NCBI GenBank assembly: GCA_024281695.1
Contig: JAMXAE010000011.1
Location: 1-34,719 of the forward strand
Length of the DNA: 34,719 bases
From: Nitrosomonas sp.
GTDB taxonomy: Bacteria > Pseudomonadota > Gammaproteobacteria > Burkholderiales > Nitrosomonadaceae
Direction of reading: 5' to 3'
Shown: positions 8,377-33,439 of the stretch, piece after piece
How the letters are laid out: every line of letters starts with the position of its first letter
How positions within the stretch are numbered: the stretch's first letter is position 1
Made by a program: the position numbers and the translations under genes
The notes under the pieces: generated by a model
Database searches by the model: none
What the model was told of the DNA's origin: nothing
Seen by the model: the letters and a program-made list of their open reading frames with translations, nothing else

Positions 8377-9315
8377 TTAATCATGTTGAGCACAACCGGC
8401 GGGGGGATTTCGAATCCATTGTTGAATCTGTTCTTGATGCTGCACATACCAAAGTTGGCCAATGGCCAGTGCTTTTTGCTGGAACACCGGATTATTTGCC
8501 GAATCCATATGATCGGGCATGTCATAGGCTTTCAGGTACTCATTGATATACAACACGCGATGCCCCAACATTTCTTCGGTCATTCTGACATTCGCCAGCA
8601 TTTTTTCGCGCAGGATGATAGAAGCAATGCCTTTAACCGACCATTGTATGCCGCCATATCCACATTCTTGAGTACCGTTAAATGCAAAGCTGCGCCAGCC
8701 TGATCCGATCGAAAGCACTTTGATGTCACAGTCGTTCCAGCATCGCTTGGCATGTAGATAAGCACTTAGGCCTGGATTATTCATGCCGACGCCACCGTCA
8801 ATGCGCCAGTATCCATCTTCCATTTGTACCGGCGGGTAATACGAAGGGGCAGCCGTGCAGGCATCGGCAATCTCGCTCAGTAAAAAATCTGATTGATTTT
8901 CATTGGTGAAAATTTCCAGACGATCTTGGTTCAAGTTAAAGCAAGGAATGAAAAGGTGCTTGCTCAGTGACGACAATCTCAGATTTCCCAATTCATTGCG
9001 TAATGTCAGGCTTTTCGCGCTGCCTTGGTATTTAGGGCGGATTTGCAGCGTATTTAGCAAGCGGTCCATCCAAGATTCCGCCATCATCTTTTCCAATAGT
9101 TTTTCCTGTAAAACCATTTGAATGATTTGTTGGGCGCTCAAGCTACGTCCCAGGATCAAACAGGCGATCAATCCTCCCGATGAAGAGCCGGCGAACATGT
9201 CGAATAAATCGTAAGTGGACGCGCCGGTATCTTCTTCCAGACACGCCAACACGCTAAGTTGAATTAACATATGGCTGCCGCCGCCATCCAAGCTTAGAAC
9301 GGATTTAGATGGCAA
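8377..9315 (-). CDS. Patatin-like phospholipase
   Basis: 312 residues. The oxyanion loop LSLDGGGSH is at 8-15, the nucleophile elbow G-S-S-S-G at 43-47 (Ser45), and the catalytic-dyad Asp is in the motif IDGGVGMNNP (Asp173). This is the complete patatin Ser-Asp dyad. No signal peptide is visible, so it is probably cytoplasmic or peripheral to the inner membrane. Patatins hydrolyse acyl esters of phospholipids or glycolipids. GGAGA precedes the ATG at a normal distance. It lies 29 bases after the LpxH-like gene on the same strand and is probably in one operon with it. Confidence 0.9.
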   Translation of the reverse strand: MPSKSVLSLDGGGSHMLIQLSVLACLEEDTGASTYDLFDMFAGSSSGGLIACLILGRSLSAQQIIQMVLQEKLLEKMMAESWMDRLLNTLQIRPKYQGSAKSLTLRNELGNLRLSSLSKHLFIPCFNLNQDRLEIFTNENQSDFLLSEIADACTAAPSYYPPVQMEDGYWRIDGGVGMNNPGLSAYLHAKRCWNDCDIKVLSIGSGWRSFAFNGTQECGYGGIQWSVKGIASIILREKMLANVRMTEEMLGHRVLYINEYLKAYDMPDHMDSANNPVFQQKALAIGQLWYVQHQEQIQQWIRNPPAGCAQHD

Positions 9316-18941: not shown

Positions 18942-19757
18942 TTATCGATTACGGATTGGTTTTACCAGCAACGATAAGCTGAACGATAACGCGCTGAATA
19001 GGACAATGGTTGTTCCCGAAGCCACATTAAAGATATAACTGAGATACATACCGATTACGCCGGTTACAGAACCAATCAGAGTTGAATAAATAATCATTTT
19101 GCTAAAGCTATCTGTAAGCATTCTTGCTGTCATGGCGGGTGCAATCAGTGTGGCGGCTACCATGGTGACGCCGATTACGTTGAGGGAGGCAATGACGGAA
19201 AAGGTCAACAGAAGGGAAAATAAAAATTGTACCGACTCGGTTTTGATGCCAAAGACGCGCGCAGCTTCATTATCAAATGTAGAAAAGAGGAGGGCTCTAT
19301 ATGAAAAAAACAGGGTGACCAGTGTGATGGCTGTTACCAATCCAATAACCACCAAGTCATGATCAGTGATTCCCAGAATATTGCCAAATAAGGCGGCCTC
19401 AAAGTTTTGCTTAAAATTGCGCAATTTACTCACGATTGCAACCCCCAAAGCAAACATGGCCGTTGTTACAATACCGATTGCGGCATCTAATTTAATCTTG
19501 TTGTTTTGTGTGATTTTGTTGATGATCAATACGGCTAGCAAGCCCATGGCAAAAGCGCCGGTGTAAAAATTCAGATTTAGCGTAAAGCCCACCACGGCAC
19601 CGCCAATGGCGGCATGAGATAATCCATGGCCGACATAGCTCATGCCACGTAGAACGACATATACGCCAATCATGCCACCGGATGCACCGACTAGCAAAGC
19701 AGCTAGCAAGGCGCGGCGAAAGAACTCATACTCAAGTGGCTCGAGGAGGAATTCCAT
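18942..19757 (-). CDS. Metal ABC transporter permease (ZnuB/TroC/MntB family, cluster A-I)
   Basis: 271 residues with about eight or nine hydrophobic helices and the family phrases RGMSYVGHGLSHAAIGG near the N-terminus and NVIGVTMVAATLIAPA in the middle. This family imports zinc, manganese or iron; nickel is inferred here only from the nearby NikR gene and operator. Its ATG shares one base with the TGA stop of the ATPase gene, so the two are translationally coupled. It is the last gene of a three-gene minus-strand operon. Confidence 0.9.
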   Translation of the reverse strand: MEFLLEPLEYEFFRRALLAALLVGASGGMIGVYVVLRGMSYVGHGLSHAAIGGAVVGFTLNLNFYTGAFAMGLLAVLIINKITQNNKIKLDAAIGIVTTAMFALGVAIVSKLRNFKQNFEAALFGNILGITDHDLVVIGLVTAITLVTLFFSYRALLFSTFDNEAARVFGIKTESVQFLFSLLLTFSVIASLNVIGVTMVAATLIAPAMTARMLTDSFSKMIIYSTLIGSVTGVIGMYLSYIFNVASGTTIVLFSALSFSLSLLVKPIRNR

Positions 19758-20575
19758 CAGTGCTTCTGATCCCTAAAGTGCAAGGGTGTGCTGTTAGCAA
19801 TTAACAAATGGCCTTCATATTTAACGATCACAATGTCGCCACCATACGTCTGAGTCAGGATTTCATTGGTAAAAATATCATGCGGTTGACCTTGTGCGAC
19901 AACACCTCGATTAAAGCAAATAACCCAGGGTAGATGGGAAGCCACGGCATTCAGGTCGTGCGTGGTCAGTAAAATGGTCATTCCTTCACTATTGAGATTG
20001 CCCAATAGATGCAATACTTCATGCTGGGTTTTGATATCGACGCCTGAGGTGGGTTCATCCAGAATCAAAAGTTTAGGGTTGCTGATTAATGCGCGCGCAA
20101 GAAATGCACGTTGTCGTTGACCACCCGATATATCGATAATATGCTGTTGCAAGCAATCCTCAACACCCAATCGATGAGCCAGATCGTGAACATTTTTACG
20201 TTCTTCTTTGCTGAGCCAAGGCAAGATGCGCCCATTGGTATACAGTCCCATTGTAATGACTTCTTCGACAGTCACCGGAAAATTCCAATCGACGCTGCCA
20301 AGCTGGGGCACATAACCGACTGTGCCCGGCTTCACTTGATTTACTGGATTGTTGTGCACCAGTATCTTTCCGCAAATCACCGGATGAATGCCTAGAATGA
20401 TTTTAAGCAGAGTGGTTTTGCCACTGGCTGTGGGACCCACAATGCCGGCAAACTGACCTACAGCTATATTCAATGACAGATCAGAAAATACTATATTCTG
20501 TTCATACCCGGCTTTGACATTGCTTAGTTGGACAGCAGCGCTGAGTTGCGCATTAAAAAGCGATGTTGCTTGCAT
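19757..20575 (-). CDS. Metal ABC transporter ATP-binding protein (ZnuC-like)
   Basis: 272 residues from the ATG at 20575; a TTG one codon earlier is also in frame. Walker A is GPTASGKT, the Q-loop lies in GYVPQLGSVDWNFPVT, the ABC signature is ISGGQRQR, Walker B is LLILDEP, and the switch His is in LLTTHDLN. The phrase DWNFPVTVEEVITMG is typical of zinc and manganese importer ATPases. The start lies inside the 3' end of the binding-protein gene (about 23 bases of overlap), so expression of the three genes is tightly linked. The cargo is probably a divalent metal, perhaps nickel given the NikR-like site in front of the operon. Confidence 0.92.
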   Translation of the reverse strand: MQATSLFNAQLSAAVQLSNVKAGYEQNIVFSDLSLNIAVGQFAGIVGPTASGKTTLLKIILGIHPVICGKILVHNNPVNQVKPGTVGYVPQLGSVDWNFPVTVEEVITMGLYTNGRILPWLSKEERKNVHDLAHRLGVEDCLQQHIIDISGGQRQRAFLARALISNPKLLILDEPTSGVDIKTQHEVLHLLGNLNSEGMTILLTTHDLNAVASHLPWVICFNRGVVAQGQPHDIFTNEILTQTYGGDIVIVKYEGHLLIANSTPLHFRDQKH

Positions 20576-21521
20576 CAATATTGGCCATGCAGGTTGGATT
20601 GCCTCCGAGTGCTTCTGTCATAATAGTCATATTGCGGGTCATCATGCCAATGAAAGAGTGATTGGGTGGAGCTGGCAGCTCATCATCTGAAAGCTGATCA
20701 ATAAATTTGACGTTCGCTTCACGCGCGATTTGCCCCATTACTTTACTAGGAAAAACTTCTGAGCCAAATATTGCAGGTACAGCGGTTTTTCTGATCTGCT
20801 TAATAATACTAATGACTTCTTGCGGACCAGGTTCGGAGAAATCGGAAGGTTGTATGGCGGCAATCACGGTCATGCCATAGCGGGGTGCAAAATAAGCAAA
20901 CGAATCATGGTAAGTCACTAGTTTGCGATTATTTTTAGGAATGGTTTCAACACATTTGAATATTGCTTGATCCAATTTCTGCAGCTTATCGAGATAAATG
21001 GTTGTATTTTCCAGATAGCTTTTTTTATTGATGGGATCAAACGCGATAAGATTTTCTTTGATTATTTCCGCATACCGCATGACCAATTCGATATTCAACC
21101 ATAAGTGAGGATTAGGATGCCCGTGTTCGCGCGGGAAACTAAAATCATATTGCCAATCTTCTTCTTTAAGTGCGTGGTTTCCCAATTGCAGAATACGGGT
21201 GTTAGGGTTTTTTACCTTCTCTGCGAGTATTAATGTGGGTAATTCGAGATCCAAGCCATTAACGATAATTATATCAGCTGCTTGCAATATTTTTATATCG
21301 GAAGGGATGGGTTCAAATGTGTGAGAATCGGTTCCATCCGGAACAATCCCCGTAACATTGACGTGAGTCCCCCCAATGTTTTGCACCATATTCGTAATAG
21401 GGGAGACAGTTGTCACAATGTTAAGCTTCTTATAAGTATCCGACGCGAGAACTGCATTTTGAAGAGAGAGGATGAATAGGAGTAATAAAAGATTTGTAAT
21501 ATGACTCATTGATAGTTTCAT
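20553..21521 (-). CDS. Metal ABC transporter periplasmic binding protein (ZnuA/TroA family)
   Basis: 322 residues from the ATG at 21521, which has AGGAAG six bases upstream; the longer form from 21545 has none. A signal peptide (hydrophobic LLLLLFILSL, cleavage near VLA-SD) precedes a cluster A-I binding protein. Expected metal ligands are His67 (DSHTFEP), His139 (NPHLWLN), His205 (TYHDSFAYF) and Asp275 (FIDQL), the His3-Asp set of zinc-type members; manganese types usually have Glu at the third site. The long His-rich loop of E. coli ZnuA is reduced to a short EHGHPNPH. A NikR-like palindrome lies 26 bases before the start, so this may be a nickel importer, or a zinc importer placed under nickel control. 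Confidence 0.9.
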   Translation of the reverse strand: MKLSMSHITNLLLLLFILSLQNAVLASDTYKKLNIVTTVSPITNMVQNIGGTHVNVTGIVPDGTDSHTFEPIPSDIKILQAADIIIVNGLDLELPTLILAEKVKNPNTRILQLGNHALKEEDWQYDFSFPREHGHPNPHLWLNIELVMRYAEIIKENLIAFDPINKKSYLENTTIYLDKLQKLDQAIFKCVETIPKNNRKLVTYHDSFAYFAPRYGMTVIAAIQPSDFSEPGPQEVISIIKQIRKTAVPAIFGSEVFPSKVMGQIAREANVKFIDQLSDDELPAPPNHSFIGMMTRNMTIMTEALGGNPTCMANIDASNIAF

Positions 21522-21547
21522 AACGATCTTCCTCGTTTTAGTCAAAT

Positions 21548-21576
21548 TGTATGAAAAAAAAGCAATTTATCATACA
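21548..21576. promoter_or_regulatory. Candidate NikR operator TGTATGA-N15-TCATACA
   Basis: Perfect 7-base inverted arms (21548-21554 and 21570-21576) contain GTATGA and TCATAC, the half-sites of the E. coli NikR operator (GTATGA-N16-TCATAC). The spacer here is 15 bases, one shorter. The site lies 26 bases before the metal-binding-protein gene on one side and about 70 bases before the TonB-receptor start on the other, with a nikR gene in the same cluster. Nickel-bound NikR would be expected to repress both divergent units. Confidence 0.72.
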
Positions 21577-21645
21577 TATTGGATTATGATCACGATTCAT
21601 GCAACTTTGAAGAAATAAAACACGTGAGTTTTGGGGAGAATGAGC

Positions 21646-23716
21646 GTGAAAAAAGCGATAGGAGTTGTGATTACTATGCAGCAATTGATCATGAGCTGCA
21701 TTGTTTTTTCAATTGGTTGGCTATCTTTGCTGGTTAATGCCGCCAACATTGCGGGAAGTCACAGTACGCGCCAATGCAAAGGAATTGATTGGAACCGCAA
21801 ATTCTGCGAATGAAGGCACGGTTCTTAAACAGCAATTGGATTCGCGCACCGTTTATCGGCCAGGAGAATTGCTGGAAACTGTGCCAGGCCTGATCGTAAC
21901 TCAGCACAGTGGTGAAGGTAAAGCCAATCAGTATTTCCTGCGTGGCTTTAATCTCGACCATGGTACAGACTTACGCATTACGATAGATGGCATGCTGGTT
22001 AATCAACGCTCGCACGGGCACGGACAAGGTTGGGCTGATACTAATTTTATGATTCCGGAGCTGGCGGGAAATGTGCAGTACATGAAAGGACCTTATTACG
22101 CCAGTCAAGGCGATTTCTCCTCAGCCGGTTCGGTTAGCATGGGCTATGTTGATAAATTACCCAAAGGTATTGCCAGTTATGGTTTAGGGCAGCAAGGGTT
22201 TATGCGCGGATTGGTGGCAAAATCACACGAAGTGGGTAAGGGGAATGTTCTGTATGCTGTCGAATTACTGACAAAAGACGGTCCGTGGGTTAAGCCTGAG
22301 GATTTCAAGAAATTCAATGCGGTGTTGCGCTATAGCCAGGATACGGGACCAACCACATTTAATATTACTGCAATGGGCTACGGGGGGAATTGGAATTCTA
22401 CCGATCAGATTCCACAAAGAGGAGTTGCGAGCGGATTCGTTCCGCGATTGGGTGCGATTGATCCCAGTGATGGTGGGGAAGCACACCGCTTTAGTCTTTC
22501 CAGTGCGCTACGGCATAAGAGTCGTTTCGGAACCACACAATTAAATTTATATACACTACACACCAATCTCGCTTTATTTTCAAATTTTACTTATTTCCTT
22601 GATGATCCCGTGAATGGCGATCAATTTTCCCAGGTCGACAAACGCTTCCAATCCGCTATGAATTTAAGCCATCTATGGATCAATAAAGTTGGCGGAATCG
22701 AGATCGAAAATACGGTAGGTGTTCAATTCCAGAACGATGTGATTGATAACGGATTATCAAGTACAAAACAACGTCAAGCGCTATCAACCACTCGCAGAGA
22801 CCACATTAATCAGAATAGTGTCGGTATTTACTATCAGAATAGTATACAGTGGCTGGAAAAGTTTCGTAGCGTGACTGGTGTGCGTTCGGATTATTACTGG
22901 TTCAATGTAAATAGTAATCTAAATGCTAACTCAGGTAATCGCTATGACAGCATGACTAATCCCAAGCTGAGTTTAATTGCCGGGCCTTGGGTACAAACGG
23001 AATTCTATTTCAATTACGGTAGCGGTTTTCATAGCAATGATGCACGCGGAACTACCTCTACCGTTGATCCAAAATCGGGAGATCCCATCAACAGGGTTAA
23101 TCCGCTGGTACGTTCGACGGGATATGAAACGGGATTTCGCACGGCTATTGTTCCAGGGTTACAAGCTTCTTTTGCATTATTTCGTTTGGATTTGGATTCA
23201 GAACTGCTATTTGTGGGCGATGCCGGAACGACAGTGGCAAGTCGTCCAAGCAAACGAGAAGGGTTTGAGATCTCGACATTCTACATGCCTACTGATTGGC
23301 TAACGATCGATATAGATTATGCACTGGCACGTGCACGCTTTAGCGATAGGGATCCGAGTGGCGACCACATACCCGGAGCAATTAATGGAGTCGGTAAACT
23401 GGCAGTTTCCCTAGACAATATAGGTGCATTCTTTGGGAGCATGCAATTGCGTTACTTCGGTCAGCGTTCTCTCACCGAAGATAGCAGTGTGCAGTCAAAT
23501 TACACGATGACACTGAATGGTCAGATCGGTTACAAAATTAGCAAAAATGTTCGAATATCGGTGCAGGGGTTTAATCTATTGAATAGTCGAGCTCACGCAA
23601 TTGATTATTTTTATACTTCCAGGCTTCCAGGTGAGTCTGCTGCTGGCGTGAGTGACTTGCATTTTCATCCTATCGAGAGTCGATCATTTCGCGTCAATTT
23701 AGTCGCTAATTATTAG
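21646..23716 (+). CDS. TonB-dependent outer-membrane receptor, probably for a nickel chelate, with an apparent frameshift after the signal peptide
   Basis: The receptor body is one open frame from 21701 to 23716, with a TonB box (EVTV), a plug (ETVPGLIVTQHSGEGKANQ, FLRGFNLDHGTDLRITIDGM) and a 22-strand-type barrel ending NLVANY. In that frame the N-terminus is not a signal peptide. In the frame one base off, a good signal peptide reads from GTG 21646 (GGGGAG upstream): MKKAIGVVITMQQLIMS, a hydrophobic core, then LLVNA. Removing one C from GCCGCC at 21739-21744 would join them as LLVNAATLREVTVRAN, a normal mature start. So there is one extra base, whether real or a sequencing error. Position between the NikR-like operator and nikR points to nickel uptake. 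Confidence 0.82.
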
Positions 23717-23800
23717 TCAATGTAAATATTATCCATCCATGAGTGGAATTAAATCTATTGTTTTGATAAGTTCTTAGCAGTGAAAGCTTGGGAGAAATTT

Positions 23801-24262
23801 ATGGAACGTTTTACTATTTCGATGGATGATCAGTTGTTTGAACAGTTCGACAAGGTGGCACATGCACGGGGTTACGATAACCGATCGGAAGCGATTCGTG
23901 ATCTTATCCGCGAGTATCTTGAAACTGCTCGTTTGGAGAAAGATAACAAAGGATATTGCATTGCTACGCTTAGTTATATTTATAATCACCACGAAAGAGA
24001 TCTGGCCAGTCAAGTAACATCGGCACATCATGATCATCACGACTTAACTTTGTCGAGCATGCATGTTCATATGGATCATGATAACTGCCTGGAAGTGGTT
24101 ATTCTTCGCGGCACCATTCAAGACGTCAGGCTTTTTGCCAATCAAGTGATCGCGACGAATGGGGTGCGGCATGGCAAGTTGCACATTGTACCGATTGAGC
24201 TTTCACAAGAGTTGCATGCGCACTCTACAGTACCGCATACGCACAGTAGCCCGTTGACTTAA
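23801..24262 (+). CDS. nikR: Nickel-responsive transcriptional regulator NikR
   Basis: 153 residues from the ATG at 23801, with GGGAG six bases upstream; a start at 23780 is open but lacks support. The N-terminal ribbon-helix-helix domain MERFTISMDDQLFEQFD and NRSEAIRDLIREYL is followed by the ACT-like nickel domain. High-affinity nickel ligands are all visible: His77, His88, His90 and Cys96 (HVHMDHDNC), matching E. coli His76, His87, His89 and Cys95. The C-terminal tail is His-rich. NikR binds palindromes such as the one at 21548-21576 and turns off nickel uptake when nickel is sufficient. It follows the TonB receptor by 84 bases, so it would repress its own operon. Confidence 0.96.
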   Translation: MERFTISMDDQLFEQFDKVAHARGYDNRSEAIRDLIREYLETARLEKDNKGYCIATLSYIYNHHERDLASQVTSAHHDHHDLTLSSMHVHMDHDNCLEVVILRGTIQDVRLFANQVIATNGVRHGKLHIVPIELSQELHAHSTVPHTHSSPLT

Positions 24263-24282
24263 TATTGTTTGATTGGAAATAA

Positions 24283-24315
24283 AAATCCCCACCTATTGGC
24301 GGGGATTTGTTTTTA
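24283..24315. terminator. Bidirectional rho-independent terminator between nikR and urea transporter
   Basis: Arms AAATCCCC (24283-24290) and GGGGATTT (24301-24308) enclose a short loop in which CC and GG can extend the stem. The plus strand continues TGTTTTT, and on the minus strand the hairpin is followed by a T-rich run. It fits convergent termination of nikR (plus) and the urea operon (minus). Confidence 0.88.
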
Positions 24316-24335
24316 GGACACTATTAGTTTCAGTT

Positions 24336-25313
24336 CTAATTTCCCCAATGCTTGGATTTGCTGGCGGCAAACAAGAACATCCACATGACCAGCACAAAAG
24401 GAAAGGTTAATGTAGGCAACCCTATCGGTGCTAGGAAATTAGCTAAGCCAGCCTGGCAGATAATCGTCAAAATTCCTGCCAGCAGCGCAAGTATTGCACT
24501 TCCCGTAGTCGGTTTGAGAAAGACCCATCCTATCGCCATCATTGTCAGTACCGGATTGAATGCATAGAGTCCCATCTCAATCAACGTTTTATCTGCGCCG
24601 AGTAAAACTGGCACGGCAACCCCAACGATGGCACCGGATAATGCCATGAATGCACCACGCATCGAGGTTATCGCGATGCCAACCAGAAACAAAATACCTA
24701 CAATAATGCTATCAGCAAACATGACTTCACCGATACCCTTGGTGATCGCTGTATACCAGGCCTCAACTGCGTTTTGCGTAAAGTTCGCGAACTCGGTCGA
24801 AACCACTGAAGCTGCAGCAATGTCAGCGGGGATTCCCGGGGCTGGTAGCACGGGGCCACGTGAGAATCCATCAAAAGCATAAACCGCGACCATGAACATC
24901 CAACACGTTAAAACAAAGGGTGAAGTGGAAGCCGGGATGTTATAGGGTTGTAAGATCCTCATCAGCGCTGCCAGTACGACTGTAGACAATATCGAAGCGA
25001 GCACCACATATAACCAAAGCTGCGGTGTGTTCTCGAGAAACAGGAATAAGCAAGGGCCTACCAGCGTGCCGTTAAATCCATACAATCCTGCGTCGATGTC
25101 ATCTTCTGAGAATCCCAGTAAATAAGCAGCAACGGTACTGCTGACTACACCCACGGTTGCGGCAAGCCCCGCAGTGATTCCTCCCACATATAAAGCAATT
25201 AAGAAAATAAGTCCTGTCACTGCATTGCAACAGAAAAAAACTTGCCCAACTCCTCTGAGAATTACCCGCAGAGGTTTGGGGAATGCTTTGTCAATTGATA
25301 AAGACCAATCCAT
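24336..25313 (-). CDS. yut: Urea transporter of the UT/Yut family
   Basis: 325 residues, almost entirely hydrophobic helices in two inverted halves. The UT signature appears in both: YGFNGTLVGPCLFLFLE near residues 78-94 and YAFNPVLTMMAIGW in the second half. VGQVFFCCNAVTGLIFL at the N-terminus is also family-typical. It forms a urea channel in the inner membrane. AGGAG lies about ten bases before the ATG. It is the last gene of the minus-strand urea array, after ureG, and it supplies urea to the urease encoded just upstream. Confidence 0.93.
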   Translation of the reverse strand: MDWSLSIDKAFPKPLRVILRGVGQVFFCCNAVTGLIFLIALYVGGITAGLAATVGVVSSTVAAYLLGFSEDDIDAGLYGFNGTLVGPCLFLFLENTPQLWLYVVLASILSTVVLAALMRILQPYNIPASTSPFVLTCWMFMVAVYAFDGFSRGPVLPAPGIPADIAAASVVSTEFANFTQNAVEAWYTAITKGIGEVMFADSIIVGILFLVGIAITSMRGAFMALSGAIVGVAVPVLLGADKTLIEMGLYAFNPVLTMMAIGWVFLKPTTGSAILALLAGILTIICQAGLANFLAPIGLPTLTFPFVLVMWMFLFAASKSKHWGN

Positions 25314-25422
25314 GGTGAATAGCTCCTAAAGATTTTGAGAAAAATATAACTACAGTAAATAAAACAAAGTTCTATATAATCATTCAGGCGAAAACTATTA
25401 ATTAGTGAGTAAGGGAGTTGCA

Positions 25423-26058
25423 TCAGTTTTTCTGGTGTTTCACTTCTTCCAATAATCCTTGTTTTACAATGAAATCTACAATTTGATCGACGCCTTCACC
25501 CGTATGCATATTGGTAAACACAAACGGCCGATCACCCCGCATTTTTTTAGCATCTCGTGCCATCACTTCCAGACTTGCACCGACGTAAGGGGCGAGATCT
25601 GTTTTATTGATGACAAGTAGTGCAGAGCGCGTGATACCAGGGCCACCTTTGCGAGGTATTTTTTCACCGGCAGCAACGTCAATTACGTAGATAGTCAAAT
25701 CAGACAGCTCAGGACTAAAAGTTGAGGCGAGGTTATCGCCTCCCGATTCGACCAGAATGAGATCAAGATTAGGAAAATCGGCAGTCATACGTGCAATTGC
25801 TTCGAGATTGATGGAAGCATCTTCCCTGATTGCCGTGTGCGGACAGCCGCCAGTTTCTACTCCCATCAAACGTTCAGGAGGCAACGCATTGGCGCGCAGT
25901 AGAATCTCCATATCTTCCTTGGTATAGATATCGTTGGTGATGACAGCCATTTCATAACGATCACGCATTCTCTTACTGAGTGCTTCGCACAGAGCTGTTT
26001 TTCCGGATCCAACCGGGCCGCCGATTCCAACACGAAGTGGATTTGATTGTTTGCTCAC
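25423..26058 (-). CDS. ureG: Urease accessory GTPase UreG
   Basis: 211 residues starting at GTG (ribosome site GGGAT upstream). The SIMIBI-class GTPase motifs are GPVGSGKT (14-21), the metal-binding Cys-Pro-His ([11 protein letters not shown], Cys72 and His74), ESGGDNLAS, and the guanine-specifying NKTD. UreG dimerises on nickel and GTP and passes nickel into apo-urease with UreD, UreF and UreE. It follows ureF by 17 bases and ends 109 bases before the urea transporter gene. Confidence 0.97.
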
Positions 26059-26075
26059 GTTTTATATCCCAAAAA

Positions 26076-26753
26076 TTATGATCGATAAATTCTGCTGTAC
26101 TGCGTTTCATGTAGTATTGACAGCAACGATAACCCTGGCGCCCAATTGGATAAGTCATCATCCTTGAGTTGTTGTGCGCGTAGCGACACCGTTTCAATAA
26201 TAGAATGTAATGAAAGTAGCAGACTCTGTCCAGAAACCTGACCAAGTGGTACGGATTTAACACAGACGAGTACTTGGTTTTCAACTATTGAAAAAAGCAT
26301 TCCGAGTAACGCAACTTCATGTGGTATAGCAAATGCTTCTGCAGCACAAGCAAATGCGGTGGGCAAAGGAACTTCCGATTGATTTCTCAAGATTGCTTGT
26401 AAAGATTCATCGGCAATTTTTAGATCCATGATGAGTTTTCCTAGGGAATATCCCATTTGGATAGTTTCGGCACGAAACTCAGACGTATCGCGTGCCGCTA
26501 TAAAATATTCGGTCCAATAACTGACAGCCTTTGCGTCACGCTCAGTAAATGCCTTGAGCAAGCGCCATAATATCGGCGCTTCAAAGTCGGCAATAATACT
26601 TAAGGACTCAGCAATCCATATTTTTGCAGTATTTTCATTGTAGACGATACCTTTCTCGATGGCTGATTCCAGGCCTTGGGAATAGGTATACGCACCAATC
26701 GGTAAAGATGGACTTGCTAACTGTAATAGGCGGAGCAATACACTGGATTGCAA
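26076..26753 (-). CDS. ureF: Urease accessory protein UreF
   Basis: 225 residues, all-helical. The N-terminal motif LLRLLQLASPSLPIGAYTYS is the UreF hallmark, followed by GLESAIEKGIV. The start is a TTG with AGGA eight bases upstream; no ATG exists near the conserved N-terminus. UreF bridges UreD on the urease apoprotein to the UreG dimer and gates GTP hydrolysis. It lies ten bases after ureE. Confidence 0.95.
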   Translation of the reverse strand: MQSSVLLRLLQLASPSLPIGAYTYSQGLESAIEKGIVYNENTAKIWIAESLSIIADFEAPILWRLLKAFTERDAKAVSYWTEYFIAARDTSEFRAETIQMGYSLGKLIMDLKIADESLQAILRNQSEVPLPTAFACAAEAFAIPHEVALLGMLFSIVENQVLVCVKSVPLGQVSGQSLLLSLHSIIETVSLRAQQLKDDDLSNWAPGLSLLSILHETQYSRIYRS

Positions 26754-26762
26754 GGTTTTTTC

Positions 26763-27284
26763 CTAGGATTTTGAGTCAGAAGGTCGATGAATCTTCTGAC
26801 GTGCAGGTATTGGAGCCAGTGGACCATGTGCATGATAGTGACCATCGCCGTGATGATGGCTTCCGCTACCATAAGCGCCTGATTCTGGTTCGAACTGAGC
26901 ATCTTCTTCCACGATATTGGCCCCCAGACCTTCTAACATCTGCTTTAATACACTGTCTTTGTGAATACGTAAGAAAGCTTCGCCAACTTGTGTTTGTGTG
27001 TGACGATTCCCTAAATGAAAGGCGCAGCGCATTAAATCATGAGTTGTACGACAAGTAATGCGGTAAGTAGGCTCATGGGCTGCGATAATTTGCACGACAC
27101 GACCGTCGTCGCTTTTGAGCAAATCATTATCTCGTAGAATCGTGCCGCGTGTAGTAAAAATAGCAACTTCCTCACCGGACGCAAGCACTGTTCTAAGTCG
27201 GCTGTTTTCACGCATTTCATAGGGTAGAACGAGTTGCGCAAAAACTGATTCTGCATGATCTATTTTAGTATTCAACGTAAGCAT
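26763..27284 (-). CDS. ureE: Urease accessory nickel chaperone UreE
   Basis: 173 residues from the ATG at 27284; an in-frame TTG at 27302 is less likely. The N-terminal domain carries the conserved start of UreE (FAQLVLPYEMRENSRLR). The second domain has RCAFHLGNRHTQ, where the nickel-binding His of the dimer interface sits. The C-terminal tail SHHHGDGHYHAHG is a His-rich nickel-binding tail as in Klebsiella UreE. It delivers nickel to UreG. It is separated from ureC by 153 bases that contain two strong hairpins, the largest gap in the urease gene set. Confidence 0.95.
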   Translation of the reverse strand: MLTLNTKIDHAESVFAQLVLPYEMRENSRLRTVLASGEEVAIFTTRGTILRDNDLLKSDDGRVVQIIAAHEPTYRITCRTTHDLMRCAFHLGNRHTQTQVGEAFLRIHKDSVLKQMLEGLGANIVEEDAQFEPESGAYGSGSHHHGDGHYHAHGPLAPIPARQKIHRPSDSKS

Positions 27285-27322
27285 CGGTTTTCTTATGATC
27301 AATTAAAGATTGTGTGTAATGA

Positions 27323-27349
27323 CTATCACAGTAATGGATACTGTGATAG
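27323..27349 (-). promoter_or_regulatory. Perfect 10-bp hairpin between ureC and ureE
   Basis: CTATCACAGT (27323-27332) and ACTGTGATAG (27340-27349) are perfect inverted arms around a 7-base loop. There is no T-run after it on the minus strand, so it is not a standard terminator. It may be an mRNA stabiliser, a processing site setting the ratio of urease subunits to accessory proteins, or a DNA-level operator. Confidence 0.6.
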
Positions 27350-27369
27350 CGATCATTAAAATAGAGAGG

Positions 27370-27410
27370 CTTCTTCTTTATGAAGAATATTATTCACATA
27401 AAGAAAGAAG
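27370..27410 (-). promoter_or_regulatory. Second, longer imperfect hairpin after ureC
   Basis: CTTCTTCTTTATG (27370-27382) can pair with CATAAAGAAAGAAG (27397-27410) with one bulged base. A smaller hairpin, TTCTTC-N5-GAAGAA (27371-27387), uses the same left arm, so the two folds exclude each other. It is the first structure met downstream of the ureC stop codon. Confidence 0.5.
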
Positions 27411-27437
27411 ACTTGCTCTGTATCGGATACTGCTCTC

Positions 27438-29144
27438 CTAGAATAGGAAATATCGCTGTGCCATGGGTAGAACATCTTCTGGACCACATGTCAATAACTG
27501 TCCATCAGCGCGTACTTCATAAGTTTCTGGATCGACTTCCATTTTAGGTGTTGCGCTATTGTGAATCATGTCTTTCTTGCGCAGATTCCGTGTATTTTTG
27601 ACTGGAATAATGTGTTTGTCGAGCTTAAGTTGATCGATTAAATCAGCATTAAGCGCGGCTTGTGAGGCGAATGTGAAACATGATGTTTTGATTCCTCCCC
27701 CATATCCACCAAACATATACCGATAATGCACGGGCTGAGGCGTTGGAATCGATGCATTAGGATCGCCCATCAGAGATGCTGCAATCATTCCGCCTTTTAA
27801 GATCATGGATGGTTTCACGCCGAAGAAAGCAGGTCTCCACAATACAAGATCTGCATACTTACCGACCTCTATCGATCCAATTGCGTGTGAGATGCCGTGT
27901 GTAATGGCTGGATTAATAGTGTACTTGGCAACATAACGCTTCACACGGAAATTATCATTCCTTGAGCTATCCTCCTGTAGTGTGCCGCGTTGTATCTTCA
28001 TTTTATGTGCGGTTTGCCATGTGCGCAGTACGACTTCACCAATGCGCCCCATTGCTTGCGAATCTGAGGACATCATAGAGATAGCTCCCATGTCATGGAG
28101 AATATCTTCAGCCGCGATGGTTTCTTTCCGAATGCGTGATTCTGCAAAGGCAAGATCTTCTGCAATATTGGCATGCAAATGATGGCATACCATCAGCATA
28201 TCCAAATGCTCATCAAGGGTGTTCACCGTATAAGGGCGAGTTGGATTCGTTGATGAAGGTAAAACATTATCCTGTCCCACGACCGCTATGATGTCTGGCG
28301 CATGACCACCGCCTGCACCTTCAGTATGGAAAGTATGAATGGTTCGATCTTTCATGGCAGCAATGGTGTTTTCTAAATAACCGCCTTCATTGATTGTGTC
28401 GGTATGAATAGCAACTTGCACATCATATTTATCTGCAACATTCAAACAGTTATCAATAGCCGCATAAGTTGTGCCCCAGTCTTCATGAAGTTTTAGACCA
28501 CAAGCACCGGCAAAAACTTGTTCTTCAAGTGGTGTTGGCAGACTGGTATTACCTTTACCAAAAAAGCCTGTATTCATTACTAACCCATCCGATGCTCTGA
28601 GCATGGAATGAATATGCCAGGGCCCGGGTGTACAAGTGGTTGCTGCTGTCCCTACTGCAGGACCTGTACCGCCTCCCAGCATGGTGGTGATGCCATTCAT
28701 CATGGCATCTTCAGCTTGCTGTGGCGAAATGAAGTGAATGTGGGTATCTACACCTCCGGCTGTAACAATCAGATTTTCGCCGGCAATGATTTCGGTGGCC
28801 GAACCAATAGCCATTGTAACATTGGGTTGAATATCTGGGTTTCCAGCTTTGCCGATTGCTGCGATCTTGCCATTCTTAAGGCCTATATCCGCTTTGACAA
28901 TCCCCCAGTGATCAATAATGATTGCATTGGTAATGACGGTGTCCATGACATCGGCATGATTGCGTTGTGATTGACCCATTCCATCGCGAATCACTTTTCC
29001 ACCTCCAAACTTCACCTCTTCTCCATACGTAGTGAAGTCTTTCTCAATCTCTATAAAAAGCTCTGTATCGGCCAAACGGACACGATCGCCAGTTGTTGGG
29101 CCCATCATTTCGGCATAGGTTTGACGGGAAATTTTTACGCTCAT
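27438..29144 (-). CDS. ureC: Urease alpha subunit UreC
   Basis: 568 residues, full length. The di-nickel site is complete: His135 and His137 (THIHFISPQ), carbamylated Lys218 (GLKLHEDWG), His247 (AIHTDT), His273 ([12 protein letters not shown]) and Asp361 (SSDSQAMGR). The mobile-flap Cys320-His321 ([17 protein letters not shown]) is present. It hydrolyses urea to ammonia and carbamate in the cytoplasm. AGGAG precedes the ATG. It follows ureB by 33 bases. Confidence 0.99.
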
Positions 29145-29177
29145 TTTTTTGCTCCTGTAAAATTATTGCAATACAAG

Positions 29178-29498
29178 CTATTTAAGTTTGCCCATCACTT
29201 TTTGATTGAATCCATAGACGATTCGGTCACCACCAAGCTCAACGAGTTCAACGGTTCTTTCTTGCCCTGGTTCGAAGCGGATAGCTGTTCCGGCCATAAT
29301 ATTCAGCCGCATACCATAAGCAGCTTCCCTGTCAAATTTCATGGCAGAATTTACTTCAAAGAAATGAAAGTGGGAGCCAATTTGTATTGGACGATCCCCT
29401 CCATTAGAGACAGTTAAGGTTTTAGTGTTTCTACCAACATTTAATTCAATTTCGCCCGATTCAGTAAACACTTCACCTGGAATCATTGGTGTTCTCAT
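29178..29498 (-). CDS. ureB: Urease beta subunit UreB
   Basis: 106 residues with typical UreB features: [19 protein letters not shown] at the N-terminus, [15 protein letters not shown] and the tail [14 protein letters not shown]. It is a structural subunit that wraps around UreC. It is separate from UreA, as is usual in bacteria other than Helicobacter. It lies 21 bases after ureA. Confidence 0.98.
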
Positions 29499-29519
29499 GA
29501 TGATCTCCTATTTTAATGA

Positions 29520-29822
29520 TTAAACTATCGGATTATGAACAGTAACCAGTTTGGTTCCATCTGGGAACGTTGCTTCGACTTGGATATCCGGAATCATTTC
29601 GGGGACACCTTCCATGACATCAGCGCGAGTCAGTATTTTTTGTCCACCTGTCATCAATTCGGCTACCGTTCGACCATCTCTGGCACCTTCCAATACTGCG
29701 CAGGTGATCAGTGCTACAGCTTCTGGGTAGTTGAGTCGTAGACCACGGGCTCTACGTTTTTCAGCTACTAATCCTGCAGTAAATATCATTAGTTTGTCTT
29801 TCTCTCTAGGTGTTAAGTCCAT
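29520..29822 (-). CDS. ureA: Urease gamma subunit UreA
   Basis: 100 residues, the standard length. [20 protein letters not shown] at the start, [21 protein letters not shown] in the middle and the C-terminal [17 protein letters not shown] are diagnostic. AGGAG lies eight bases before the ATG. It is the smallest structural subunit and the first of the structural genes, after ureD. Confidence 0.98.
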
Positions 29823-29919
29823 AGTTTTTCTCCTGGGTAAAATAACATTTTCAATTTTCGAAGTTACTGCAGCATCTGAGATTTATTAGAAAACCACCTT
29901 AAGTCAACAATATAATTAA

Positions 29920-30864
29920 TCAAGTATTCCACATACGTGGAACAATTTCAGCGCGTCCCAGAATTTCAGGACGAAATAAGCCCCAGACACGCAGCATAAC
30001 ATGCCGTGCTACCTCGCTTGAATCGCCTAAATAACGGACCACCACAATCGATTTAAGTTGAGAAATACCTACCTGACCAATACCATTGATAATCTTTTCT
30101 GCTTCTTCGCGCGCTAAATCTATCAATGGTTGAGGTATCATTTTTCCCGTCAAAATAAGTGAAGCACAGACTGTCCTGCCAGATAACGCTAAAGAGCCAT
30201 TCATCGCAGAACTTTCACCGAGAAGGCGGATCTGCTCAAGCCAAATTAACTTATCATTCCGTCGGATGCTAGTACGCTGTTTGATTTGACCATGATTGAA
30301 TGTTTCGCCTGACGCCGTGCGACCAAAACATAATATTTCACAACCGACATAAACCGCATCATCTTCAAGTATGACCTGATGATCAATCTCTACCTCGGCA
30401 TGATTATAAAAAATGGTCTCTTGCGGTACCCACTCGAGTGAGCCACCCTTGTTGACATTAATTCTAATTTTCTGTTGTGAGTTATGCCCATTGGCTTTGT
30501 ACCATTTGGTGGCCCCAGGTGTAGTAATTTGTGCGTTTGCAGATGTACCAATTTGAGCCGAAATTTCTAATTGATCACCCCCAACGACTCCACCCGGCGG
30601 ATGAATAATCACCACATGGCAGACTTCTCGTCCTTCCGGATAAAAAGGTTTTTGCACTAACAATGGACCAAAGTGATCTCGTTCTACAAGACGTGTTGTG
30701 TCATCGAATTTAGAAAACTTAAGTGATAATTTTGCTTGTAACGGTGTATAAGTTGGATCTATGGTTGGCTCCGGTACGTACTGTATAGGCTGCTTCAGAT
30801 AAGACAGGATAGTGGAGCTTGGTTGCATACTGACGAGTTCTTCCTTGTGTGCTGACAGGTGCAT
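29920..30864 (-). CDS. ureD: Urease accessory protein UreD (UreH)
   Basis: 314 residues. Family phrases: LSLKFSKFDDTTRLVERDHFGPL, VIIHPPGGVVGGDQLEI, TPGATKWYK and WVPQETIFYNHAEVEI. UreD binds the apo-urease and recruits UreF and UreG; a tunnel in it carries nickel to the active site. TAGGAAT lies six bases before the chosen ATG; a second ATG 12 codons later is less supported. It is the first of the urease genes, 42 bases after the porin gene, in the order D-A-B-C-E-F-G. Confidence 0.97.
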   Translation of the reverse strand: MHLSAHKEELVSMQPSSTILSYLKQPIQYVPEPTIDPTYTPLQAKLSLKFSKFDDTTRLVERDHFGPLLVQKPFYPEGREVCHVVIIHPPGGVVGGDQLEISAQIGTSANAQITTPGATKWYKANGHNSQQKIRINVNKGGSLEWVPQETIFYNHAEVEIDHQVILEDDAVYVGCEILCFGRTASGETFNHGQIKQRTSIRRNDKLIWLEQIRLLGESSAMNGSLALSGRTVCASLILTGKMIPQPLIDLAREEAEKIINGIGQVGISQLKSIVVVRYLGDSSEVARHVMLRVWGLFRPEILGRAEIVPRMWNT

Positions 30865-30906
30865 TTTATTCCTAATCCTTAAGGAATCGTTGGTCTCTAA
30901 AGGTAT

Positions 30907-32283
30907 TTAAATTTGTAGTTGGAAAGAAATTTTAAAAACATCTTGTGTATGACCCGATACTCCAGGTGCATAATTCAACCCTTTGGATAAGAGATCGCCA
31001 TGCTGATAGTAAGCTGAAACACGTGCATTAAAGCCATCAATAATATAATTTACACCGGCTTCAATTTCTTCTCGGTTGCTGCTTCGATTAGGTTGAATGC
31101 TGGTAAATCTACCGTAGGGCTGAAATTGCCCAATACCGACTTTACCCGGTAGTAAATACAGGCCCGTTACTGTCCATGACTTGCCATCAAACATACAAAA
31201 GCAATCACGATCAGAGAATGCGGTAGTCGAATATCCTGCATAGAATTGTTTATATTCAGCATTTAATGTGGTTACGCCCATATTCCGAGGTAATACTTTC
31301 TCGAATAATAAGTCACCTGTAAAACCGAGAAAATCACTCCGATGTGCGAATGATCCAGCGCCATTTTTTTGGTATGACATACCGAATGCCAACGCTAAAA
31401 TATCTCCCGCTTTGCCGAAATACGTACTAGAAGTGTAGTAGCCAGGATTTTTCTCTGGATTCAGAAAATTATAGGTAACACGTGCAGCTGTTAGTATGGT
31501 GCCGCTTGGATTAGGTCCCGCAGTGTGCGATGATTCTAAACCGCGAAAGACTCCCATTGCATAACCCAGCGTTCCGGGCACAAAACCTGGTTCTGCATTG
31601 CCCCAGAAAGTTACTCCATCGTCACGACCATAACGACCGGCGCCACCATTGCCAAAATTTGTACTGAAATCTTGAGAAAAGAAGGGCGTTTTAAAAGCAT
31701 CATGGGTAGCTTGGAAAAAAGGACCACTTAACTCTCCCCGCTCTGTGGGCGCTAACATGCGCCCTCCCCAGATGTTGAAATAACGGTTGTATTCGAATTT
31801 TGCAATGGCATCGAGGATGTTGTAGGACATCCTGGGATTTTCGCCAGAAGCGGTATTGTTGCAGAAAAAGCACTCGGTATTGACTTCAAATTTAAGATAT
31901 TGATTAAACTGACCATTCAGATAAATACGAGCATTATCATTGCTATAATGACCGCTATCCAAATTACCGCTTAAGTTTTCAGTCCATAACCCGGTTCCTC
32001 GATAGCCTGCTCCTAAGCTAATCCATCTGGTTTCACTGGATTTCACTTTTAGCTTGTCAGAAATTGGTTTTACTGAAAAATCCATTGCATAAACATTGGA
32101 TACAAACAAGAGAAAAGCGCTCATGAATATAGCGATCAGGAAAAAATTTCCAGATACCTTGATATCTTTTTTCTCATTATAAAGAGGTAAACAAGGCTGA
32201 CTAGAGATGCTTAGTGACATCAATCTCGCATTCTTAATTTTTGTCTGTAAACTGTAATTGACTTTCTGCATGAGCCTGTCCAT
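30907..32283 (-). CDS. FmdC-like outer-membrane porin, candidate urea/short-amide porin
   Basis: 458 residues. A long N-terminal leader precedes a signal-like segment (FFLIAIFMSAFLLFVSNVYA). The mature part is rich in amphipathic beta-strands with Gly and aromatic residues and ends in KISFQLQI, typical of an outer-membrane barrel. The sequence recalls the FmdC porin (short-chain amides and urea in Methylophilus) and OprP/O-like barrels. Two Cys clusters, ECFFCNN and DCFCMFD, are unusual for a porin and may form disulfides or bind metal. The true start may be the ATG at 32220. It is the first gene before ureD on the same strand, so a urea-entry role across the outer membrane is likely but inferred. 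Confidence 0.75.
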   Translation of the reverse strand: MDRLMQKVNYSLQTKIKNARLMSLSISSQPCLPLYNEKKDIKVSGNFFLIAIFMSAFLLFVSNVYAMDFSVKPISDKLKVKSSETRWISLGAGYRGTGLWTENLSGNLDSGHYSNDNARIYLNGQFNQYLKFEVNTECFFCNNTASGENPRMSYNILDAIAKFEYNRYFNIWGGRMLAPTERGELSGPFFQATHDAFKTPFFSQDFSTNFGNGGAGRYGRDDGVTFWGNAEPGFVPGTLGYAMGVFRGLESSHTAGPNPSGTILTAARVTYNFLNPEKNPGYYTSSTYFGKAGDILALAFGMSYQKNGAGSFAHRSDFLGFTGDLLFEKVLPRNMGVTTLNAEYKQFYAGYSTTAFSDRDCFCMFDGKSWTVTGLYLLPGKVGIGQFQPYGRFTSIQPNRSSNREEIEAGVNYIIDGFNARVSAYYQHGDLLSKGLNYAPGVSGHTQDVFKISFQLQI

Positions 32284-32520: not shown

Positions 32521-32621
32521 AAGATGTCAATTACCAAAGACTAGGTATCCCCTGAACAAGTTATAAATAGAAGGTTTCGAATTTATTGTTTACTGGTTTT
32601 GGGTAATTTTAGATTGCAGAA

Positions 32622-32669
32622 GGATTGGAGGATTGGAGGATTGGAGGATTGGAGGATTGGAGGATTGGA
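32622..32669 (+). repeat. Octanucleotide tandem repeat (GGATTGGA)x6
   Basis: Six perfect head-to-tail copies of GGATTGGA fill 48 bases. They lie in non-coding DNA between the MITE-like element and the transposase remnant. Perfect identity implies recent expansion by replication slippage, so copy number is likely to vary between strains. Confidence 0.95.
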
Positions 32670-32742: not shown

Positions 32743-33439
32743 TTAATAATGCTCGTCTGACCTGATTTTGGTATAGCCAAACTGACCCTTCAAGATCCTG
32801 AACGGATGTTCGGCGATGACACGAATCCGTGCGATTGTTCTGTTGAACCACTTTGGTAGTGGCACCTAGTGCTTTGCCTGGTGTAGCCTTTCGCGCTACC
32901 CAATCGACCGCTTCTTGTTTTCGCAGGTGTTCATGCACACTGGGATAATCATAGTTCCGATCCGTACTGATTCGTTCTTCTTCATGCAACAATGCCTGAA
33001 GCTGTGACATATCCGAATCTTTGGTCGTGGTGCCAACACGGTATGAGCTAATCCGCTGCGGTCATCCACCCCAATATGCGTTTCATTCCAAAATACCATG
33101 ATTGCTTTTCTTCGTCTGAGTCATCTCAGGATCGCGCTTGCCTTTCCGTAACAGCAAACCTTGCTCTGCTAACATCATATTGACTTTCCCAAAAGCCTTG
33201 CTGTCAATTCATGTTTCTCCAGAAGATGGCGAAAGTGCAGTGCAGTGCAGTGCAGTGCTCTCGCCCGGTATTGTCCTCATTCCCCGCTTTCGGATAGTGT
33301 GGCTCTACCACTGCAATTAACCGTGCTCCACGGAACGACCCGCCTCCATCTCTTCCAGAAGCTTCTCTCGCCTCGTCCTTTTCGGCTTCACCCCATACTC
33401 GTTTGCTCCAAATCTCACTTGCTTTATCGTCACCACCAT
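32743..33439 (-). pseudogene. Decayed IS5-family transposase
   Basis: Reading the minus strand and changing frame several times recovers an IS5 transposase: MVVTIKQVRFGANEYG and TRREKLLEEME, then LIAVVEPHYPKAGNE, FRHLLEKHELTARLLGKVN, AEQGLLLRKGKRDPEMTQTKK, WYFGMK, HIGVDDRSGLAHTVL, and finally ARIRVIAEHPFRILKGQFGY and TKIR before a stop. Several frameshifts and at least two internal deletions (after KAGNE and after LLLRKG) make it dead; it is about 700 bases instead of about 1 kb. No clear terminal inverted repeats are seen at its own edges. Confidence 0.85.
33234..33258 (+). repeat. Pentanucleotide tandem repeat (AGTGC)x5 at a transposase deletion scar
   Basis: Five perfect copies of AGTGC sit exactly where the IS5 transposase remnant jumps from the KAGNE segment to the FRHLLEKH segment, that is, at the internal deletion junction. 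Slippage on a short repeat may have accompanied the deletion. Confidence 0.85.

Follow-up and report, generated by a model that had tools for sequence, protein, structure and literature searches.

A cluster A-I importer with a predicted NikR operator as probable nickel supply of urease in Nitrosomonadaceae

The nickel and urease genes of the window

The window considered here is a 34,719-nt stretch of Nitrosomonas sp. DNA, i.e. contig C217 of a 3.0-Mb draft genome (completeness 89.7%, contamination 6.7%). Between positions 18942 and 32283, an initial annotation made from the sequence alone had recognized a block of genes for metal uptake, nickel sensing and urea hydrolysis, and had supposed that the whole supplies urease with nickel. 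From a comparison with other Nitrosomonadaceae, we think it very probable that the block joins a nickel-supply module, made of a cluster A-I ATP-binding cassette (ABC) importer and a TonB-dependent receptor predicted to be repressed by NikR in the lineage of the window, to a urea module.

Profile matches (Pfam and NCBIfam) placed every named gene, i.e. importer, receptor, NikR, UT channel and UreDABCEFG, at the coordinates and on the strands first proposed. To judge by its layout, the block is not a single operon and comprises at least three transcription units. The first runs leftward on the minus strand and encodes the importer: a substrate-binding protein (SBP) of the ZnuA/TroA family (20553-21521; PF01297, 233 bits for a cut-off of 29), the ATPase (19757-20578; PF00005) and an ABC-3 type permease (18942-19757; PF00950, 235 bits for a cut-off of 20). 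The second unit diverges from the SBP unit and runs rightward on the plus strand, with 155 bp between the listed open reading frames (ORFs); it comprises the TonB-dependent receptor with its plug and barrel (21701-23716; PF07715 and PF00593) and the nickel-responsive regulator NikR (23780-24262; NF002815, 201 bits for a cut-off of 83, with RHH and NikR_C domains also above cut-off). The third unit is the urea block, again leftward on the minus strand: a porin-like protein (30907-32283), UreD (29920-30864; PF01774), UreA (29520-29822; TIGR00193), UreB (29178-29498; TIGR00192), the urease alpha subunit UreC (27438-29144; TIGR01792, 993 bits), the nickel chaperone UreE (26763-27302; NF009751, 163 bits, and PF02814/PF05194), UreF (26076-26753; PF01730), UreG (25423-26058; TIGR00101, 341 bits) and the UT-family urea channel (24336-25313; PF03253, and TIGR03441 with 347.6 bits for a cut-off of 274.6). 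The urease complement (UreA, B, C, D, E, F and G) is complete. Between the convergent nikR and UT genes lies a terminator-like hairpin with an 11-pair stem (24283-24308, minus strand), of a kind that shuffled sequence yields about as often in such scans. The closest named relative by UreC, among the matches listed, is Nitrosomonas oligotropha Nm45 (96%), whose gene order is identical to that of the block.

An importer of the zinc/manganese class

The initial annotation had assigned the importer to the zinc/manganese class A-I, and this was borne out by the combination of a ZnuA/TroA-family SBP, an ABC-3 permease and an ATPase, which it shares with AztABC, ZnuABC and PsaABC/MntABC. The SBP probably starts at the ATG at 21521 (by inspection), the listed start being a TTG at 21545. 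In an alignment to PsaA, three of the metal-ligand positions of that protein are occupied by His in the SBP and the fourth by Asp (candidate ligands H75, H147, H213 and D288, numbered from the TTG start). Of 55 sequences, 54 retain each of the three His and 53 the Asp. This candidate site is compatible with zinc or nickel and does not by itself decide the cargo.

These three systems carry zinc or manganese and are under Zur- or MntR-type control. The window proteins differ from them in that they reach none of the corresponding NCBIfam equivalog cut-offs: the SBP scores 181 of 350 bits for AztC, 79 of 268 for ZnuA and 167 of 400 for MntC, the permease is below cut-off for AztB, SloB and ZnuB, and so is the ATPase for its best models, MntA and AztA. 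No subunit of the peptide/nickel family (NikABCDE) or of the energy-coupling factor type (CbiMNQO) was found at the locus, NikMNQO and NikABCDE not having been searched genome-wide. Outside Nitrosomonadaceae, no near-full-length SBP match above 33% identity appeared among the matches listed (399 genomes at the level of the order, a number of which belong to the family).

A NikR operator in the divergent promoter

A scan with the E. coli NikR half-sites gave an exact GTATGA-N15-TCATAC at 21549-21575 (no strand assigned), i.e. in the divergent promoter, where it precedes the probable ATG of the SBP by 27 bp and also stands in front of the receptor. These half-sites are separated by N16 in the E. 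coli operator (PMC7055735), versus N15 here; the enterobacterial NikR signal, GTATGAT-N13/14-ATCATAC (27-28 bp), includes the N15 spacing (PMC545781). Sites with at most one mismatch number three in the window, versus 0.08 expected from dinucleotide-preserving shuffles, the other two being one inside ureC and one at 33041. On the side of the protein, the His/His/His/Cys positions that serve as metal ligands in E. coli NikR are retained in at least 52 of 53 NikR sequences.

The operator is a conserved feature. In 62 loci totalling 950 kb (L002 being the same contig as L097), 69 sites with at most one mismatch had a gap of 15, some of them in ureC coding sequence, and each other gap from 10 to 21 gave 1 to 5. 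The regions upstream of the SBP were analysed in the window and 60 relative stretches, of which 55 hold the SBP. When all gapped palindromes (6-mer arms, gap 4-21) were listed with no motif specified beforehand, GTATGA-N15-TCATAC was the commonest, exact in 25 of the 55 regions; the same listing on 20 mononucleotide shuffles reached at most 2. Among the 50 stretches with nikR, the operator was exact in 25, within one mismatch in 34 and within two in 39. The counts were redone by gene layout, i.e. according to whether or not ureE stands before the SBP: 39 of the 44 nikR-containing loci without ureE in the 400 bp before the SBP have an operator with at most two mismatches, and 4.3% of shuffled 600-mers contain such a site. 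Across 24 non-redundant operators, identity is 28-30% in the flanks and 93-95% in the half-sites; as the search itself selected for the half-sites, it is the value for the flanks that is informative.

Operator-like matches inside ureC (at 28402 in the window, and in several relatives) were rejected, since the coding sequence is conserved there and the protein accounts for them. The one-mismatch site at 33041-33067 is upstream of two genes, 758 bp from the porin start and about 600 bp from the RIO-kinase gene; besides it, no non-coding site with up to two mismatches was found near porin or ureD in the window. A NikR-like site does lie between porin and ureD in L120-L123 and L131. Control of the urease genes themselves by NikR, variable among relatives, might hold in those five. 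A second and more divergent nikR (55-63% identical) is present near the urease porin gene in L131, L133, L141 and L144 (genus g3), and in L141 ORFs that resemble a two-component system on inspection lie between this divergent nikR and the porin.

The importer follows urease among relatives

Gene presence was surveyed in 125 Nitrosomonadaceae genomes. UreC was found in 78 (short fragments in G029, G048 and G102 being counted as present), NikR in 64 and an ortholog of the SBP in 72, i.e. 73 matches minus an unrelated protein (28% identity) of G032. SBP and UreC occur together in 71 genomes and are both missing from 46; one genome (G020) has the SBP alone and seven have UreC alone, which puts the SBP in 71 of 78 UreC-containing genomes versus 1 of 47 UreC-less ones. 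The seven with UreC only all belong to genus g2 (G001, G002 and G004-G008); their UreC is about 65% identical, neither SBP nor NikR was detected in them, and six have the porin.

An rpoB tree (FastTree) of 109 genomes contains, on well supported branches, 16 independent pairs whose members differ in SBP; UreC changes with it in 15.6 of the 16 on average, the opposite change being seen in none (sign test, p 3e-5). Sixteen genomes stayed outside the tree (9 without an rpoB match, 7 with split or partial rpoB only), the partial rows G000, G002 and G118 and the long-branch row G040 being retained.

Among the outcomes that would refute its reading, the initial annotation had named a failure of related genomes to keep these genes together. 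They do keep them: SBP and UreC are at most 20 kb apart in 54 of the 71 genomes with the pair. Since N. oligotropha Nm45 moreover has the same order, the arrangement of the block is no accident of the window contig. The two genes are on different contigs in 14 genomes, and are both kept far apart on one contig in three (G052, 83 kb; G062, 225 kb; G051, 1.8 Mb). For 79 further UreC loci (the best 80 listed, minus L002), no relative of the SBP, permease, TonB receptor, UT channel or porin was found at E ≤ 1e-4 within up to 10 kb on each side, several of these stretches being shorter; nikR was present in one.

Adjacency of ureE and the importer genes

In 16 genomes (G009, G013, G019, G020, G042, G043, G044, G048, G053, G057, G060, G061, G070, G072, G074 and G078), the first searched gene upstream of the SBP is ureE, in the same orientation. 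Where a stretch of this ureE-first group contains ureC as well as ureF, ureE is absent from the interval between these two. Measured between aligned parts, the ureE-SBP gap is 19-90 bp in 11 of them, 151-217 bp in three and about 480 bp in two (L120 and L127), sizes from which we infer that the two genes would be co-transcribed. In G019, a sister genome of G020, UreC, UT and porin sit between ureE and nikR.

NikR sites stand elsewhere in this group: before both receptor and ureD in L121, L122 and L123, before ureD in L120, and before ureD with two mismatches in L295. Stretches L129, L148 and L149 have no operator, the receptor of L148's genome (G020) having an exact site on L290. Among nikR-less stretches, L124-L128 have no non-coding site with up to two mismatches in 12.9-17.9 kb; L292 has one with two mismatches, L296 (G124, 51% complete) one with one mismatch, and L293, L294 and L297 none. 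The operator is thus in the promoter of the importer in the window, and is not there in most ureE-first relatives. Because the latter carry operators elsewhere or none, NikR control of the importer is supported, as a prediction, in the lineage of the window and in most Nitrosospira-like (g3) stretches, and not in the ureE-first group.

The TonB receptor and its fusion to HupE/UreJ

A receptor of the window type (at least 70% identical) was found in 54 genomes, i.e. 52 with UreC, plus G012 and G020. In 11 genomes (G019, G023, G024, G041, G042, G043, G044, G053, G059, G075 and G078), an open frame of 900-960 amino acids joins a HupE/UreJ nickel-permease domain to the TonB plug and barrel of a paralogous receptor; Pfam confirmed all three domains in both of the frames scanned (L124, 13270-15978, from G042; L125, 13717-16431, from G044). 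In G042, G043, G044 and G078 the fusion follows the UT gene beside urease, and nikR is undetected in these four. A gene resembling beta-type carbonic anhydrase lies between UT and the fused receptor in L124 (12418-13200, by Pfam) and L125 (12907-13653, by inspection). The stretch before the plug resembles a signal peptide on inspection, and the fused chain may be cleaved into two. We read the fusion as linking the receptor family to nickel independently of NikR, but G059 and G075 have the fusion without a detected UreC.

Other nickel and zinc transporters

NiCoT (PF03824) was found in 4 of the 125 genomes, and HupE/UreJ (PF04955) was matched in 48 at E ≤ 0.001. Among the 71 genomes with both SBP and UreC, 25 have a HupE/UreJ match of some kind and 46 none, and 57 have none above 100 bits. 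The 14 with a match above 100 bits include stand-alone proteins in G023, G038 and G054 and a shorter one in G051, the TonB fusion in nine (G023 among them) and, in G057 and G060, fragments that resemble the fusion; in the remaining 11 the matches are weak or partial and do not exceed 44 bits. If these weak or partial matches are ignored, 60 of the 71 have neither a stand-alone nor a fused HupE/UreJ. The match in the window's own genome is marginal (23.6 bits for a cut-off of 23).

The ZnuA family (PF01297), which is nearly always represented by one copy per genome, was found in 74 of the 125 genomes: 71 with UreC, G020, G032 and G003. The sole member in G032 is the 28%-identical protein already mentioned, with no Zur-like neighbour among the four L289 proteins scanned, and that of G003 is a broken fragment below cut-off.

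The urea side of the block

The porin-like protein, which the initial annotation had called FmdC-like, has no Pfam match, and with the ExtI porin model it stays below the cut-off (63.6 of 150 bits). Against PDB chains it gave no match at E < 0.001, the only ones being antibody chains at 0.019 to 0.14. Its gene tracks urease (73 of 78 genomes with UreC, 3 of 47 without), and g2 has it although the nickel module is missing there. UT is found in 69 of the 78 and in 8 of the 47, some of them as fragments. Since g2 has urease and porin without the nickel module, and UT occurs without UreC in eight genomes, the block is best read as two modules, one for urea with porin and UT channel, and one for nickel that would consist of importer, receptor and nikR.

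Window positions 32621-32669, ahead of the porin gene, hold AGGATTGG six times without a mismatch. An Rfam match to 5_ureB_sRNA (28710-28990, 121 bits), antisense to ureC, may merely reflect conserved urease coding sequence and was not used. Elsewhere in the window, a patatin-like phospholipase gene (8377-9315) scores 128 of 200 bits, i.e. below cut-off, with a CBASS effector model.

Discussion

What was observed directly (the genes, the operator and its conservation, the co-occurrence and the gene rearrangements) suggests the following scheme. At low nickel, NikR would be in the apo form and both divergent transcripts would be made. Nickel would then cross the outer membrane through the TonB receptor and the inner membrane through the cluster A-I importer, to be loaded into UreABC by UreE, UreG, UreF and UreD, while porin and UT channel would admit urea. 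Once nickel is sufficient, Ni-NikR would occupy the operator in the shared promoter and shut off importer and receptor together. In this scheme we infer the cargo of the importer and of the porin, the ligand of the receptor and the direction of control; repression is taken over from E. coli and H. pylori (PMC7055735, PMC5140060). The earlier suggestion that the importer carries nickel is backed by the NikR operator, the co-occurrence with urease on the tree, the adjacency of ureE in 16 relatives and the near-absence of the SBP family where urease is missing. The importer appears, from the comparison of relatives, to have become the nickel supply of urease.

Several facts pull the other way. 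In the window itself, the receptor gene has a disrupted reading frame at the 5' end: the signal-peptide stretch (from 21640; window 21640-21720) and the mature part are read in different frames, and in the eight relatives compared they share one frame. The frameshift in the contig is either a real mutation or an error of the draft assembly. Five of the 44 nikR-containing loci of the window-like layout (L092, L094, L110, L120 and L138) have no operator with up to two mismatches; nine SBP-containing genomes have no detected nikR; and of the nikR-containing ureE-first loci only L123 has a site with up to two mismatches (two, before ureE) in the 600 bp that precede ureE or the SBP. The contrast in operator presence between SBP-upstream regions with nikR (39 of 50) and without (0 of 5) was set aside as unclean, since in nikR-less loci a ureE before the SBP takes up a part, or much, of the scanned region. 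G020 (L148) keeps ureE-SBP-ATPase-permease, nikR and the operator-bearing receptor with UreC, UT and porin undetected, and conversely the g2 ureases without this SBP indicate that other nickel routes exist. Finally, physical linkage by itself could yield much of the co-occurrence of SBP and UreC, and it is therefore the unlinked genomes that matter.

These points have to be set against other readings of the block. It could hold an ordinary zinc importer, standing by chance beside urease and nikR: its family is that of ZnuABC and AztABC, zinc SBPs use a 3-His/1-Asp site too, and the ureE-first relatives show no clear NikR site before it. However, the SBP cannot well be a general zinc importer, because nearly all urease-free relatives do without a PF01297 protein (only G020, G032 and G003, the last two with the proteins described above, match it among the 47 without UreC), and zinc import as its main role was rejected on that account; with the ZnuA and AztC cut-offs unreached, an NikR operator conserved in the promoter and ureE adjoining the SBP, we regard a zinc importer as very unlikely. 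Slightly less probable still is that importer and urease form a single mobile or co-deleted island and are functionally unrelated. Joint gain or loss would indeed be easy for genes as close as SBP and UreC are in the 54 genomes, but both are kept in the three genomes where they lie far apart on one contig, the operator is conserved while its flanks are not, and the rearranged loci still keep the SBP with ureE or the receptor.

A more serious competitor, which we nevertheless consider improbable, is a broad-range importer that carries nickel plus a second metal (cobalt or zinc), its level being set by NikR according to nickel status. The zinc-like 3-His/1-Asp site would suit it, cluster A-I sites can be polyspecific, as in YfeA with its two polyspecific metal-binding sites (PMC5505154), and NiuBDE of H. 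pylori has been reported to carry cobalt and bismuth as well (PMC5140060); against it, the presence of the SBP follows urease rather than a general need for metal. Coming back to a nickel supply for urease, we lean slightly towards a more specific proposal: that this branch of cluster A-I, found in these searches only in ammonia-oxidising Nitrosomonadaceae, would have turned into an importer dedicated to nickel, with a TonB receptor of its own and under NikR, and that several NikR-less relatives would have, in place of the receptor, the HupE/UreJ-TonB polypeptide, perhaps cut by signal peptidase into an inner- and an outer-membrane nickel transporter.

Parts of this plan have counterparts elsewhere. 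In Helicobacter pylori the importer is of the FecCD kind, the NikR operator has another sequence and the genes are scattered, E. coli NikABCDE has no urease alongside, and Neisseria takes up zinc through the TonB receptor ZnuD and ZnuABC under Zur. The Neisseria route shares with the block a receptor and a cluster A-I importer under one metal sensor, but the block differs by its NikR operator and its urease. NikABCDE/NikR of E. coli is an ABC nickel importer under NikR with the same operator half-sites (PMC7055735), but it belongs to the peptide/nickel family. The NikR/FrpB4/NiuBDE/urease system of H. pylori resembles the block in that a TonB receptor and an ABC importer feed urease, the receptor being nickel-repressed via NikR, and differs by its kind of importer, whose niuE was once annotated fecE (PMC5140060). 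NikR-controlled nickel uptake beside urease is a known kind of system, and what would be new is an importer of an unexpected class. In a catalogue of nickel importer families we noted no cluster A-I member, ZnuA/TroA going unmentioned in its main text, and in that 2009 survey 62 bacteria had nickel enzymes with no known nickel transporter (PMC2667541). A literature search, with most subscription papers outside its reach, found no report of a cluster A-I nickel importer or of a HupE-TonB fusion.

Ammonia oxidisers can live on urea, and urease requires nickel. The presence of ure genes together with a urea transporter in ammonia oxidisers has been described (PMC10753782), and so has urease in N. 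ureae (PMC4786657). If the proposed role is right, searches for nickel transporters would have one more class to include, cluster A-I, there would be reason for caution before every PF01297 protein is labelled a zinc or manganese importer, and nickel supply would be linked to urea-fed nitrification.

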